DNA of 34,071 nucleotides, taken from NCBI GenBank assembly GCA_024680695.1, contig JAILBW010000196.1:1-34071 (forward strand), read 5' to 3'. The notes under the pieces were generated by a model. It made no database searches and was not told the origin of the DNA. It saw nothing but the letters and a program-made list of their open reading frames with translations. Below, in pieces: positions 21,805 to 29,614 of this stretch (position 1 is its first letter; every line of letters starts with the position of its first letter). The position numbers and the translations under genes were made by a program. This DNA comes from Bacteroidaceae bacterium. GTDB taxonomy: Bacteria; Bacteroidota; Bacteroidia; Bacteroidales; Bacteroidaceae.

Positions 21805-23217
21805 ATGGCAGAGAGCCCACAAATAATGTGGAAACGTTGCCTGGACATCATCCGCAACAACGTGAACGAGCAGCAGTTCGAGACATGGTTCTCACCGCTG
21901 CAGTTCAAGTCGTTCGATGTGCAGACGAAGGAACTGACGGTCTATGTACCGTCACAGTACTTCCATGAATATCTGGAGGAGAAGTTCAGCCGACTGTGGC
22001 GTCCGGCCATCATCCGCATCTTCGGTTCCGAGACACGCCTGTTCTACGATGTCAATGTGGCCAGCGACGAGACCGTCCACATGGAGAGCGACAACACCAA
22101 CGCCGAAACACGGCAGGCCACGTCGAAACCCGCCAACCAGGCTCCCAGCACCCTGCAGGCCGTGGGAACCGCTCAGGATCTGGACTCGCAACTCAACACG
22201 AAACAAAACTTCAGCAACTTTATAGAGGGACTCAGCAACAAACTGCCCCGCAGCGTGGGACAGGCCATTGCCGAAGACCCCAACCAGCAAGCATTCAACC
22301 CCCTGTTCATCTTCGGCCCCAGCGGCGTGGGCAAGACCCACCTGGTGAATGCCATCGGCACGCGCGTCAAGGAACTGCATCCGCAGAAGCGCGTCCTCTA
22401 CCTGAGTGCCAACCTATTCCAGGTGCAATACACCGACTCGGTGCGTCGCAATACGTTCAACGACTTCATGCACTTCTACCAGAGCATCGACGTACTCATC
22501 ATGGACGACGTTCAGGAGCTCATGGGCGAAACGAAGGCGAAGACACAGTACGCATTCTTCCACATCTTCAACCACCTGCGACAGAATGGCAAGCAGATCA
22601 TCCTGACCAGCGACCGTCCGCCCGTGGCTCTGCAAGGCATGGAGGATCGACTCATCACACGCTTCAAGTGCGGCCTTCTGGCCGAACTCGAACGCCCCGA
22701 GGAGCAGCTGCGCCACGACATTCTCGTGAGCATGATACGTCGCGACGGTCTGAACATCCCCCAGGATGTCATCGACTACATCTCGATGAACGTCTCGGAT
22801 AGCGTACGCGAACTCGAAGGCGTCATCCACTGCCTCCTGGCCTACTCGGTTGTCTACAACCGCGACGTGGACATGGAACTGGCCAAAAGGGTGATAAGAC
22901 ACAGCGTCCGCACGGAGAAGAAGGCGCTCACGATGGAGCAGATTGTCGAATGCACCTGCGAACACTGCCACGTAAGACAGGAGGACGTCTATGGCAAAAG
23001 CCGCAAGGCAAAAATCGTGCAGGCAAGACAGCTGAGCATGTATTTCGCACAGCAGCTTACAAAGCTTACCACGAGCAAGATAGGCACACTTGTCGGCAAC
23101 CGCAACCATGCTACCGTAATCCACAGCGTGAAGACCATAGAGAATCTCCTGAATATTGACAAGGAATTCAGGAAAAGCGTGGAAGAACTGGAAAACAAGC
23201 TGAAGCACAGGAAATGA
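21805..23217 (+). CDS. dnaA: Chromosomal replication initiator protein DnaA
   Basis: 470 residues, the usual length. It binds DnaA boxes, forms an ATP-dependent filament and opens the origin; it also acts as a transcription factor. Domain I (1-90) carries the typical MWKRCLDIIRNNVNEQQFET WFSPL opening in two adjacent pieces. Residues 90-135 are a variable, polar linker. The AAA+ core has Walker A GPSGVGKTH at 171-179 and Walker B VLIMDDVQ at 230-237. Domain IV has the DNA-binding signature LVGNRNHATVIHSVKTI at 429-445; the usual GGRDHTTV is changed to VGNRNHATV, as seen in Bacteroidetes. The promoter is 21707-21737. The next gene overlaps the stop by 4 bp (ATGA), implying translational coupling. 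Confidence 0.98.
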   Translation: MAESPQIMWKRCLDIIRNNVNEQQFETWFSPLQFKSFDVQTKELTVYVPSQYFHEYLEEKFSRLWRPAIIRIFGSETRLFYDVNVASDETVHMESDNTNAETRQATSKPANQAPSTLQAVGTAQDLDSQLNTKQNFSNFIEGLSNKLPRSVGQAIAEDPNQQAFNPLFIFGPSGVGKTHLVNAIGTRVKELHPQKRVLYLSANLFQVQYTDSVRRNTFNDFMHFYQSIDVLIMDDVQELMGETKAKTQYAFFHIFNHLRQNGKQIILTSDRPPVALQGMEDRLITRFKCGLLAELERPEEQLRHDILVSMIRRDGLNIPQDVIDYISMNVSDSVRELEGVIHCLLAYSVVYNRDVDMELAKRVIRHSVRTEKKALTMEQIVECTCEHCHVRQEDVYGKSRKAKIVQARQLSMYFAQQLTKLTTSKIGTLVGNRNHATVIHSVKTIENLLNIDKEFRKSVEELENKLKHRK

Positions 23218-24464
23218 ACCTCAAGACACGTAGAAGTGTGCGCAAGTACACACAGCAGCCCGTCACAGACGAGTTGCTGAATCGTCTGTTGTCCGATGCC
23301 GCTCGCACCCAGACAATGGGCAACCTGCAATTGTACAGTGTCGTGGTCACGCGCGACGAAGCCATGAAACAACGTCTCGCACCCGCCCACTTCAATCAGC
23401 CGATGGTGGTCGAAGCTCCCGTGGTGCTCACCATTTGCGCCGACTTTCGCCGCACCTCCGACTGGTGCCTCCAGCGCGATGCCGTACCTGGCTACGACAA
23501 CATGCTTAGCTTCATGAATGCAGCCACCGATGCCCTACTCTACTGCCAGACTTTCTGCTGCCTGGCCGAGGAAATCGGACTGGGGCTGTGCTTTCTGGGC
23601 ACCACCATATATATGCCACAACTCATCATCGAAGCGCTCCAGTTGCCACAGCTCGTATTTCCAGTGGCCACACTCACCCTGGGCTGGCCCGACGAAACAC
23701 CTTACCCCACCGACCGTCTGCCGTTGGAGGCCTTCGTCCACACAGAGACATACCAAGCCTATACGCCCGAGCGCATCGACACCTTCTACACGCCCAAGGA
23801 AGCACTTGAGGAGAACCGCCATTTCGTTGAGATAAACGAAAAACAGACATTGGCACAGGTGTTTGCCGATATACGCTACAACAAGAAAGACAACGAGGCG
23901 ATGTCGCAAAATCTGCTCAATGTGCTCTATCAGCAAGGCTTCCTCAAGGACAGCGACCTGACGGGTTCCATCATGCCCATGATCGAGACACGTCCCGAAG
24001 TGCTCGAATGCGACGTAGTACGCTTTCAGAACCAGAAAGAGAAATGGGTGGCCTTCGTGGGATTGATGAACAACCGTCCTTACGAGATATTCACAGGCCT
24101 GATGGACGACGACGAGGGAATCTCGCTGCCAAAGAGCGTAACCACAGGGCGCATCATCAAACATGTGGACCGCGACGGACGGAAGCGCTACGACTTCCAA
24201 TTCGAGAACAAACGAGGTTACAAGACCACCGTCGAGGGCCTCAGCGAGAAGTTCAATCCCGAATACTGGAACTACGCAAAACTCATCAGCGGAGTCCTGC
24301 GCTACCGCATGCCACTGGACAACGTCATCAACCTCGTGGCTTCGCTACAGCTCGACAGCGACAGCATCAACTCATGGAAGACAGGTGTGGCGCGCGCGCT
24401 GAAGAAATACATCCCAGGCTCGACAGGCGATACGGGCGAGAAGACAGGCGAGGAAGAAGCCTAA
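23214..24464 (+). CDS. Nitroreductase-family protein fused to a class II ribonucleotide reductase C-terminal domain
   Basis: 416 residues. Residues 1-244 are a complete FMN nitroreductase-like protein: RRSVRKYTQQPVTDELL, ARTQTMGNLQLYSVVVTRDE, LLYCQTFCCLAEEIGLGLCF LG and TLTLGWPDETPYPTDRLPLE. From about 257 to 401 the sequence matches, from memory, the C-terminal domain of the adenosylcobalamin-dependent RNR (NrdJ) of Bacteroidetes: TRPEVLECDVVRFQNQKEKW, RPYEIFTG, FENKRGYKTTVEGLSEKFNP, EYWNYAKLISGVLR, LQLDSDSINSWKTGVARALK, KYI. The whole catalytic barrel of NrdJ is missing, as is the terminal CxxC pair; a GSTGDTGEKTGEEEA tail replaces it. It overlaps dnaA by 4 bp. Substrate unknown; the RNR part cannot reduce nucleotides alone. 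It could be a genuine fusion after deletion or an assembly join. Confidence 0.85.
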   Translation: MNLKTRRSVRKYTQQPVTDELLNRLLSDAARTQTMGNLQLYSVVVTRDEAMKQRLAPAHFNQPMVVEAPVVLTICADFRRTSDWCLQRDAVPGYDNMLSFMNAATDALLYCQTFCCLAEEIGLGLCFLGTTIYMPQLIIEALQLPQLVFPVATLTLGWPDETPYPTDRLPLEAFVHTETYQAYTPERIDTFYTPKEALEENRHFVEINEKQTLAQVFADIRYNKKDNEAMSQNLLNVLYQQGFLKDSDLTGSIMPMIETRPEVLECDVVRFQNQKEKWVAFVGLMNNRPYEIFTGLMDDDEGISLPKSVTTGRIIKHVDRDGRKRYDFQFENKRGYKTTVEGLSEKFNPEYWNYAKLISGVLRYRMPLDNVINLVASLQLDSDSINSWKTGVARALKKYIPGSTGDTGEKTGEEEA

Positions 24465-24491: not shown

Positions 24492-24860
24492 ATGTTGCTG
24501 GACATTCACATCGACCGACTGCGCATCTACGCCCGTCATGGCGTACTGCCGCAGGAACAGGTGGTCGGCGCCGACTTCTATGTCAGCCTGCTGCTTCGAA
24601 TTGAGGCTGACGAAAAAGCCATTCGTCACGACGACCTCTCGGGAACCATCAGCTATGCCGACGTCATCGACACCGTGCGCCAGGAGATGCAAACTGCTGC
24701 ACGCCTGCTGGAAAGCGTAGCTCTCCGCATAGGAGAACGTCTGCTGGAACGTTTTCCACGAATTGAATCCCTCGACATCCGCATCGACAAGGAGAATCCG
24801 CCAACTGGCTCACAGAGTGATGCCGTCGGCGTCAGCCTCACACTACCCCAAAAACAATAA
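24492..24860 (+). CDS. folB: Dihydroneopterin aldolase
   Basis: 122 residues, the normal length. It converts 7,8-dihydroneopterin to 6-hydroxymethyl-dihydropterin and glycolaldehyde in cytosolic folate synthesis. Family features in order are: LDIHIDRLRIYARHGVLPQE (the conserved HGV near residue 16 with Glu20), VGADFYVSLLL, the DDLSGTISYADV block at about 47-58 (Asp-Asp-Leu...Thr...Tyr-Ala), LLESVALRIGERLLERFP carrying the active-site Glu, and IDKENPPTGS with the Lys that acts as acid/base. It lies 27 bp after the nitroreductase fusion gene and 11 bp before the ybjQ remnant, so it probably belongs to the dnaA transcription unit. Confidence 0.93.
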   Translation: MLLDIHIDRLRIYARHGVLPQEQVVGADFYVSLLLRIEADEKAIRHDDLSGTISYADVIDTVRQEMQTAARLLESVALRIGERLLERFPRIESLDIRIDKENPPTGSQSDAVGVSLTLPQKQ

Positions 24861-27826: not shown

Positions 27827-29614
27827 ATGAAGAAAAAAATTAGGTTTAGCCTCGTGTATCGCGACATGTGGCAGAGCTCGGGTAAGTTCCAGCCCCGCAA
27901 AGACCAATTGGAACGCATCGCTCCCGCAATCATCGACATGGGTGTCTTCGACCGTGTGGAGACCAACGGAGGTGCATTTGAGCAAGTGAACCTGCTTGCA
28001 GGCGAGAACCCCAACGCAGCTGTGCGTGCCTTCTGCAAGCCCTTCAATGAAGTTGGCATCAAGACACACATGCTCGACCGCGGACTCAACGCACTGCGCA
28101 TGTATCCCGTTCCCGATGATGTGCGCGAACTGCAGTACAAGGTAAAGCACGCTCAGGGCGTGGATATCCCCCGCATCTTCTGCGGCCTCAACGACGTACG
28201 CAACATCATTCCCTCGGTAAAGTGGGCCAAGGCCGCAGGCATGACCCCACAGGCCACTCTCTGCATCACCACCTCGCCGGTCCACACCGTGGAATACTAC
28301 AGCGAAATTGCCGACCAAGTAATTGCCGCCGGAGCTGAGGAAATTTGTCTCAAGGACATGGCCGGCATCGGACAGCCTGCCCTGCTGGGCGCACTGACGA
28401 AAGCCATCAAGACAAATCACCCCGACATCATCATACAGTATCACGGACATAGCGGCCCAGGCCTCTCGATGGCCAGCATCCTCGAAGTGTGCAACAACGG
28501 AGCCGACGTCATCGACACAGCCATCGAACCCTTGTCGTGGGGCAAGGTACATCCCGACATCATCAGCGTGCAGTCAATGTTGAAGAACGAGGGCTTCGAG
28601 GTGAAGGAGATAAATATGAACGCATACATGCGCGCCCGTGCGCTTACGCAGGAATTCATCGACGACTGGCTGGGCTATTTCATCAACCCAGGCAACAAGT
28701 TGATGTCCTCGCTGCTCCTCGGCTGCGGACTGCCCGGCGGCATGATGGGCTCGATGATGTCCGACCTCGCAGGCATCCACGGCGTAATCAACAAGACGCT
28801 CAAAGAGAAGGGCGAGCCCGAACTGTCCACCGACGACATTCTCGTGAAGCTCTTCGACGAGGTGGCCTACGTTTGGCCGCGTGTGGGCTATCCTCCACTG
28901 GTGACTCCTTTCTCGCAGTACGTCAAGAACATCGCACTGATGAACCTGCTCACCATAGCTCAAGGCAAGGGTCGCTTCGTGATGATGGACGATGCCATGT
29001 GGGGAATGATTCTCGGCAAGAGTGGCAAGATTCCTGGCACCATCGCCCCCGAACTCGTAGAACTGGCCAAGAAGCAAGGCCGCGAGTTCACCGATGCCGA
29101 CCCGCACACCCTGCTGCCCAACGCACTTCCCGACTTCATCAAGGAGATGGAGGAGAAAGGATGGGAACGCGGACAAGACGACGAGGAACTCTACGAACTT
29201 GCCATGCATCCCGAGCAGTATCGCAACTACAAGAGTGGACAGGCAAAGAAGAACTTCCTGGCCGACTTGGAGAAAGCGAAGATTGCCAAGTTGCAGGCGG
29301 CAGGCGGCCCGAAGCTCACACCCGAGCAGATTGCCGAGTTCAAGCACGCAAAGGCCGACGCCATCGTGGCTCCCGAAAATGGACAGCTCTTCTTCGAAAT
29401 CACCGGTGACAGCGGCGTCACCCGCTGCATCGAACCGTTCATCGGACAGCAATACAAGGAGGGAGACATCTTCTGCTACATTCAGATGCCTTGGAATGAG
29501 ATTCGTCCCATCCCCGCCGGCTTAGGTGGCAGACTGGTCGACTTATCGGCAAAGCAGGGTCAGAAAGTGCTGAAAGGACAGACCATTGCCTGGATAGAGC
29601 GCGACAACAAGTAA
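27827..29614 (+). CDS. Carboxyltransferase (oxaloacetate decarboxylase alpha / pyruvate carboxylase subunit B type)
   Basis: 595 residues. The HMGL-like TIM barrel starts with SLVYRDMWQSSGKFQPR (Asp13, where RDAHQS is usual), followed by ETNGGAFEQVNLL. The carbamylated-lysine motif is CLKDMAGIG (Lys176) and the metal ligands are His206 and His208 in YHGHSGPG. The conserved carboxylase domain follows (VWPRVGYPPLVTPFSQYVKN). The family moves CO2 between biotin and pyruvate/oxaloacetate in the cytosol, often coupled to a sodium pump. Residues 543-595 form a biotinyl/lipoyl-like domain (YKEGDIFCYIQMPWNEIRP, KVLKGQTIAWIE). The AMKM site reads IQMPWNEI, so it has no lysine to biotinylate. A separate biotin carrier must then serve it, if it is active; none is encoded here. 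It is a single gene with its own promoter and terminator. Confidence 0.88.
   Translation: MKKKIRFSLVYRDMWQSSGKFQPRKDQLERIAPAIIDMGVFDRVETNGGAFEQVNLLAGENPNAAVRAFCKPFNEVGIKTHMLDRGLNALRMYPVPDDVRELQYKVKHAQGVDIPRIFCGLNDVRNIIPSVKWAKAAGMTPQATLCITTSPVHTVEYYSEIADQVIAAGAEEICLKDMAGIGQPALLGALTKAIKTNHPDIIIQYHGHSGPGLSMASILEVCNNGADVIDTAIEPLSWGKVHPDIISVQSMLKNEGFEVKEINMNAYMRARALTQEFIDDWLGYFINPGNKLMSSLLLGCGLPGGMMGSMMSDLAGIHGVINKTLKEKGEPELSTDDILVKLFDEVAYVWPRVGYPPLVTPFSQYVKNIALMNLLTIAQGKGRFVMMDDAMWGMILGKSGKIPGTIAPELVELAKKQGREFTDADPHTLLPNALPDFIKEMEEKGWERGQDDEELYELAMHPEQYRNYKSGQAKKNFLADLEKAKIAKLQAAGGPKLTPEQIAEFKHAKADAIVAPENGQLFFEITGDSGVTRCIEPFIGQQYKEGDIFCYIQMPWNEIRPIPAGLGGRLVDLSAKQGQKVLKGQTIAWIERDNK

Follow-up and report, generated by a model that had tools for sequence, protein, structure and literature searches.

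A Nitroreductase Joined to the C-Terminal Domain of a Class II Ribonucleotide Reductase and the Retention of This Domain Without a Detectable Barrel in Bacteroidales

The Fused Gene and Its Neighbours

The window, namely, the whole stretch of 34,071 nucleotides that was analysed, stems from the genome of an uncultured Bacteroidales gut bacterium and harbours, between dnaA and folB, an open reading frame in which a predicted nitroreductase (NTR) is joined to the folded body of the C-terminal extension of a class II ribonucleotide reductase (RNR), NrdJ. This body is hereafter named CD. The features of the locus are the following:

21805..23217, forward strand: dnaA, the 5' neighbour, an open reading frame (Pfam Bac_DnaA, 181 bits)
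23214..24464, forward strand: the fused gene NTR-CD, an open reading frame of 416 residues, nitroreductase plus NrdJ C-terminal domain
23214..23951, forward strand: NTR domain, NfsA/NfrA-like nitroreductase (residues about 1-246; PF00881, 58.9 bits)
23952..23984, forward strand: linker (residues about 247-257), of low model confidence, with pLDDT below 50 at 251-256
23985..24419, forward strand: CD, the folded body of the class II RNR C-terminal extension (residues 258-402), six strands and then helices, with one cysteine
24420..24464, forward strand: acidic unstructured tail (pLDDT below 50 at 404-416) and stop codon, at the place where NrdJ has a six-cysteine tail
24492..24860, forward strand: folB, encoding dihydroneopterin aldolase, the 3' neighbour (PF02152, 97.7 bits)

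The ATG of the fused gene overlaps the TGA stop of dnaA by 4 nt (ATGA), an arrangement found in 16 of the 18 fused loci measured; the start lies 35 nt behind the dnaA stop in L063 and 26 nt in L186. Because of this overlap, dnaA and the fused gene are probably co-transcribed and translationally coupled. The folB gene is the usual one downstream of nrdJ or CD: when a typed locus had a folB match (87 loci), it was on the same strand as CD and at most 300 bases away in 86 cases, and no match to it was found in the fetched stretch of 10 further typed loci. Near folB, the window also contains a 595-residue open reading frame (27827-29614), which we take to be carboxylase-like, and a frame sharing its N-terminal start is likewise nearby in two relatives (L160 and L187).

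Identity and Predicted Structure of the Two Domains

The initial annotation had read the protein as a whole nitroreductase followed by an orphan NrdJ domain, devoid of the barrel and of the final CxxC pair, and profile searches bear out this anatomy. With regard to the N-terminal part, Pfam Nitroreductase (PF00881) matches residues 3-158 over its entire length (positions 1-167 of 167) with 58.9 bits for a cut-off of 23.5, while the score on NCBIfam PRK10765, the oxygen-insensitive NADPH nitroreductase, is 104 bits and thus below the cut-off of 223. Among solved structures, the best relatives of a profile covering the NTR residues are 3eof, at the top, NfrA1 and NfrA2. Furthermore, of the 94 positions that show conservation among unfused NTRs (71 rows), 85 do so among the fused ones as well (20 rows). 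Judged by its sequence, this half is a whole NfsA/NfrA-like nitroreductase domain.

The C-terminal 172 residues match 186 out of 198 genomes in a sample of the order, with a best E-value per genome of 1e-25 to 2e-80 when the window's own is excepted. Among the matches listed, identity ranges from 52% to 76% in frames of 793-1351 residues, save for G143 (333 residues) and the window's own genome. Two long CD-bearing proteins of relatives are NrdJ according to NCBIfam TIGR02504 (583 and 585 bits, cut-off 400). Since these two long proteins score as NrdJ and matches extend across the order, the resemblance between CD and NrdJ is not due to chance. At the phylum level, CD was found in 3 of 60 genomes besides that of the window, in each case within a frame of 858-900 residues. 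The barrel profile PF02867 has no match in the 416-residue protein, and residues 245-416 hold a single Cys (C266), so that the final CxxC pairs of the six-cysteine tail are absent. Homology to NTR ends at about residue 246 and homology to CD begins at about residue 258 (23952-23985 in the window), the linker sequence in between varying among fused loci. The range first assigned to the fusion, 23900..24464, therefore covers CD, but starts slightly inside NTR.

The model of CD by itself, of fair confidence (pLDDT 84.9, pTM 0.79), shows six strands followed by helices. The AlphaFold model of the fused protein comprises two confident domains, whose relative placement is of low confidence (pTM 0.58). 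Foldseek and VIA searches with the CD model gave no clear PDB fold match, and IscU was not among the matches listed by either. In the viral library, a phage RNR entry was matched to CD with a probability of 0.96 and TM-scores of 0.45/0.52, but with an E-value of 0.21 and at rank 24. Some of the weak fold matches are PUR-alpha or other nucleic-acid binders, within what is expected by chance. A role as Fe-S scaffold of the IscU kind was rejected, since at least two Cys and an Asp are required and CD carries C266 only.

Distribution of Fused, Complete and Stand-Alone Forms

The genome sets used for the genus, the family and the order are samples, and most of the named genomes are metagenome-assembled, many of them being incomplete. 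Out of 120 relatives listed for the window protein, 119 have 409-420 residues and cover at least 96% of it, the remaining one having 366 residues; the fused cluster P0003 represents 100 contigs. The fusion is common and old. This shared length and coverage argues that the NTR-CD fusion is no join error, and, together with the low dN/dS reported below, agrees with the earlier view of a maintained gene as opposed to a fresh assembly join.

In the genus of the window, CD is present in 114 of 121 genomes, and in all 16 of those with a completeness of 90% or more and little contamination. The two-part layout, whose occurrence in other isolates the initial annotation had proposed to look for, is common there: the 116 CD genes comprise 58 fusions, 34 NrdJ, 23 short stand-alone CDs and 1 other form. 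Sorted by frame, the 116 places are 33 of NrdJ length, 23 short (168-300 residues) and 60 of middle length, and the NrdJ and short counts rest on frame length except where the locus was read, as were 14 of the 23 short ones. Reading 45 of the 60 middle-length loci gave 44 NTR-CD fusions, all with dnaA on the same strand within the fetched stretch, and one NrdJ truncated at a contig end. Among the other 15, including that of the window, 14 have NTR in the CD frame and one is different (G405/L189). Two of these 14, one with NTR interrupted near its start (L187) and one cut at a contig end (L188), were typed as fusions by hand, L188 being outside the later sets. The match of one short CD (G480) contains an internal stop, and three contigs occur twice among the loci (L061/L180, L100/L158 and L111/L163).

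Several unusual forms were noticed. In L189 (4990-6306), CD stands behind an N-terminal part of about 280 residues that is neither NTR nor barrel. P0239, a protein of 325 residues listed for a single contig of 1676 bases, has CD joined directly to FolB. The fused protein P0016 changes midway through CD to a sequence resembling that of short CDs, by recombination or as a metagenome chimera.

Outside the genus, at least 15 short CD frames, 6 of which were read, occur in five other genera of the family (g157, g151, g148, g160 and g159). A short CD is also carried by two isolates, Xylanibacter ruminicola D31d (L105) and the Prevotellaceae bacterium HUN156 (L108). Unfused CDs occupy the nrdJ site, usually with folB downstream. 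Out of 47 upstream frames compared with a profile of the NrdJ N-terminus, 8 match at E < 0.001. The matches differ in length: L154 reaches 5e-31 (profile positions 4-81), L170 4e-17 (3-65), L162 9e-10 and L166 3e-9 (both 3-35), and four more are weaker. These remnants indicate that the barrel was excised there within nrdJ, with differing endpoints. The start codons of L154 and L170 are unsure, because part of the remnant precedes the first ATG. CD is missing in 4 of 131 good genomes of the family, and hence it is not indispensable. The NTR-CD fusion is thus one outcome among several, CD also persisting alone in many genomes after RNR loss.

Ribonucleotide Reductase Complement

A second RNR in the genome had been an early concern, and the window's own assembly, with a completeness of 83%, gave no PF02867 match. 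The search was extended to 61 genomes, including five NrdJ controls as well as G290, G333 and G247. The barrel was detected in none of 53 genomes having only fused (25) or short (28) CDs, 17 of which are at least 90% complete and one (G206) is given as 100% complete, and it was detected in all five controls, in G290, in G333 and in G247, where NrdJ is in pieces on two contigs. Likewise, neither the two isolates with a short CD nor four named fused genomes gave a PF02867 match, while both of the corresponding NrdJ controls did. In G290 (L180 and L181) and G333 (L182 and L183), the NTR-CD fusion at dnaA is accompanied by a full NrdJ at another place, and the CD of that NrdJ is not the nearest relative of the fused CD; re-acquisition or a binning error may account for this.

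Class III RNR, NrdD, was found in 60 of the 61 genomes, all 27 fusion-bearing ones among them, the one without a match being G457 (85% complete, short CD). Complete loss of barrel and CD does occur: 11 of 12 CD-less genomes at the order level, and 9 of 10 CD-less genomes tested in the family, are also devoid of the barrel.

Cysteine Tail, Conservation and Selection

The cysteine tail is present in 30 of 30 NrdJ, in 3 of 47 unfused forms and in none of the 20 fused ones, two hand-reassigned rows included; L189, with its other N-terminal part, is counted among the unfused forms. The three unfused CDs retaining the tail without a barrel are L154 and, from genus g157, L167 and L168; in the latter two, an NTR gene follows downstream in the same orientation. 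That the tail was mostly lost with the enzyme while CD was kept points to two separable functions, re-reduction of the RNR active site for the tail and another one for CD.

Pairwise dN/dS values for CD, which are rough since synonymous change is often near saturation, amount to 0.014-0.065 for the fused form (6 of 9 pairs computable), 0.027-0.074 for the unfused form (8 of 10 pairs) and 0.007-0.035 for NrdJ (6 of 7 pairs), five fused or unfused pairs having no usable dS. CD is under strong purifying selection, and in the fused and unfused pairs for which both could be computed, its dN/dS is lower than that of NTR. In these pairs, CD values exceed those found for CD within NrdJ two- to threefold, and some constraint on CD has therefore been lost. 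Of the 98 CD positions that NrdJ conserves, 62 show conservation in every one of the three forms, and 36 are relaxed in one form or more.

Origin of the Fusion

The arrangement usually seen in relatives is dnaA (forward), NTR (reverse), nrdJ (forward) and folB (forward), although dnaA is sometimes not close; the neighbourhood of NTR, nrdJ and dnaA described in the initial annotation is thus real. In fused loci, dnaA, NTR-CD and folB all read forward. NTR is on the strand opposite to nrdJ in 25 of the 26 NrdJ loci holding both, the exception being L082. Twenty further nrdJ loci were fetched, 18 from other families and 2 from the same one; NTR adjoins nrdJ in 10 of the 20 (8 of the 18 outside the family), on the opposite strand in all 10. 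It is also opposite to the unfused CD in 43 of 45 loci containing NTR.

This orientation speaks against the proposal that an in-frame deletion joining the two genes is the simplest origin, because NTR must have been inverted before or with the joining. A plain deletion between neighbouring NTR and nrdJ that left an inert, functionless remnant is very improbable: the two genes are indeed neighbours and share a strand in 1 of the 26 NrdJ loci (L082), but the opposite strands in the other 25, the strong purifying selection and the retention of CD on its own speak against it.

In the better-supported tree, which was built from NTR and DnaA and covers only the 57 loci having both, five of them NrdJ, the fusions fall in two spots in all bootstrap trees, and a single fusion lineage is obtained in 0%. 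Nineteen fused rows group with the window, and the fusion of Candidatus Physcousia equi (L063) is placed among short-CD relatives with a support of 100/100. The CD tree also sets L063 apart and requires two changes for the fused label, the NTR-only tree requiring three; in both, the well-supported branches force only one origin. From these phylogenies, two origins of the fusion appear likelier, one gain plus one reversal being a possible alternative. There may be two or three fusion lineages, since the join of L186 with the L062 group was flagged as a meeting of long branches. In one of the two lineages, the loss of the barrel probably preceded the fusion, given that the closest relatives carry short CDs.

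Function of the Retained Domain

Many relatives keep CD without class II RNR, which suggests that CD has a job of its own. Starting from what is observed, namely, the anatomy of the protein, its maintenance, its gene context and the absence of a detectable barrel, we consider with a probability of about 0.6 that the window encodes a maintained NTR-CD protein in which CD, kept without a detectable class I/II barrel, would fulfil a binding or assembly role apart from ribonucleotide reduction, with NTR as its partner. This role would already have been present in the NrdJ of the ancestor. NTR, the long-standing neighbour of CD, is probably its partner, and in the fusion the putative flavin reductase would carry CD. 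Nitroreductases of the NTR family are dimeric, and a dimeric NTR would display two copies of CD in the fusion; for this reason, CD may act as a targeting or regulating module, which would bring the reductase to a target or regulate it.

More tentatively, the folded part of the C-terminus in class II RNR may be an independent module with a second job predating the loss of the enzyme, lineages of the family having repeatedly deleted the B12-dependent barrel and the redox tail yet kept the module beside, or fused to, a flavin reductase as physical partner. Where relatives still possess RNR, this reductase may donate electrons to CRD-type class II RNR. A somewhat more doubtful reading, of the Rosetta-stone type, makes NTR the partner of class II RNR by way of CD, and perhaps its electron donor, the old NTR-CD complex having been kept for another acceptor after barrel loss. 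It is in keeping with the divergent position of NTR beside nrdJ in 10 of the 20 fetched loci, with the fusion to CD in two lineages, and with the glutaredoxins and thioredoxins that, according to excerpts of PMC5704485, were tested and did not reduce a CRD-type class II RNR. However, the other 10 loci have no NTR beside nrdJ, the modelled placement of NTR on CD is of low confidence, and NTR and CD remain although redox cysteines and barrel are gone in the fused and most unfused forms, so that their present job is not RNR reduction.

That CD now serves NrdD, the sole remaining RNR class, e.g., as an assembly or effector module, is unlikely. The presence of NrdD in all but one of the searched genomes, and in every one with a fusion, says little, because class III cannot be dispensed with in a genome devoid of class I/II RNR; moreover, fused and short CDs are not paired with one kind of NrdD, but co-occur with all three score ranges (about 1e-195, 1e-100 and 1e-78), and the P. 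copri NrdD described in excerpts of PMC11226230 uses formate and its own ATP-cone. A precedent for an action of CD in trans on a separate barrel is NrdJb, which serves NrdJa in Pseudomonas aeruginosa and represents the same region on its own gene (excerpts of PMC5704485 and PMC9669993), but the absence of a barrel in 53 of 53 and 6 of 6 genomes, and of the dithiol-exchange cysteines in most forms, contradicts this idea and makes it very unlikely here. As for an assembly or binning artefact, the probability is close to nil: most named genomes are indeed metagenome-assembled, but 119 of the 120 listed relatives, from several sources, agree in length and coverage, 44 of 45 further genus loci are fused, and the short CD without a barrel recurs in isolates (L105 and L108). 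The reading that we retain is thus that of a CD with a binding or assembly role of its own, for which NTR would be the partner.

Comparison with Known Systems

The C-terminal domain of class II RNR and the nitroreductase are each already known; the literature searched contained no description of a C-terminal body of class II RNR that is retained in the absence of RNR, be it by itself or joined to a nitroreductase. In Stackebrandtia nassauensis, this domain supports higher oligomers of the class II RNR with dATP/dGTP, there are hints of a further nucleotide site, and a native reductant was sought and not found, as stated in excerpts of PMC5704485. The role of the folded, 'IscU-like' part of class II C-termini is described as unreported in excerpts of PMC9669993, dating from 2022. 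The lineages that keep CD without the enzyme, and mostly without the redox cysteines, represent a natural experiment on the function of the domain itself, and they point to NTR as a candidate partner. They also call for caution in annotation, since some CD proteins of about 200 residues are named 'ribonucleoside-diphosphate reductase alpha chain' at their source, so that a genome devoid of class II RNR would seem to have one.

CD is homologous to the folded part that directly precedes the cysteine tail in the CRD of dimeric class II NrdJ, as far as described in excerpts of PMC5704485, from which the window CD differs by having neither an attached or genome-detected barrel nor the six-cysteine tail, and by its fusion to NTR. 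It shares with the 'IscU-like' domain, located directly before a zinc finger in excerpts of PMC9669993, the folded alpha+beta character, but has one Cys only and no IscU-type Fe-S site. Weak matches to TSCPD (PF12637) were obtained in 45 of 50 alignment members (best 2.4e-6), whereas the window CD, with 15.6 bits, is below the gathering cut-off of 22.8 and lacks the letters TSCPD. Compared with the NfsA/NfrA nitroreductases (3eof, NfrA1 and NfrA2), NTR has the whole domain and most conserved positions, but carries an extra C-terminal domain and scores below the PRK10765 cut-off. Finally, like NrdJb of the split class II RNR of P. aeruginosa (excerpts of PMC4520616), the window CD comprises the C-terminal part of NrdJ and is encoded separately from the barrel; unlike it, NrdJb needs NrdJa and mediates dithiol exchange, whereas the window CD has neither a barrel nor a redox cysteine pair.
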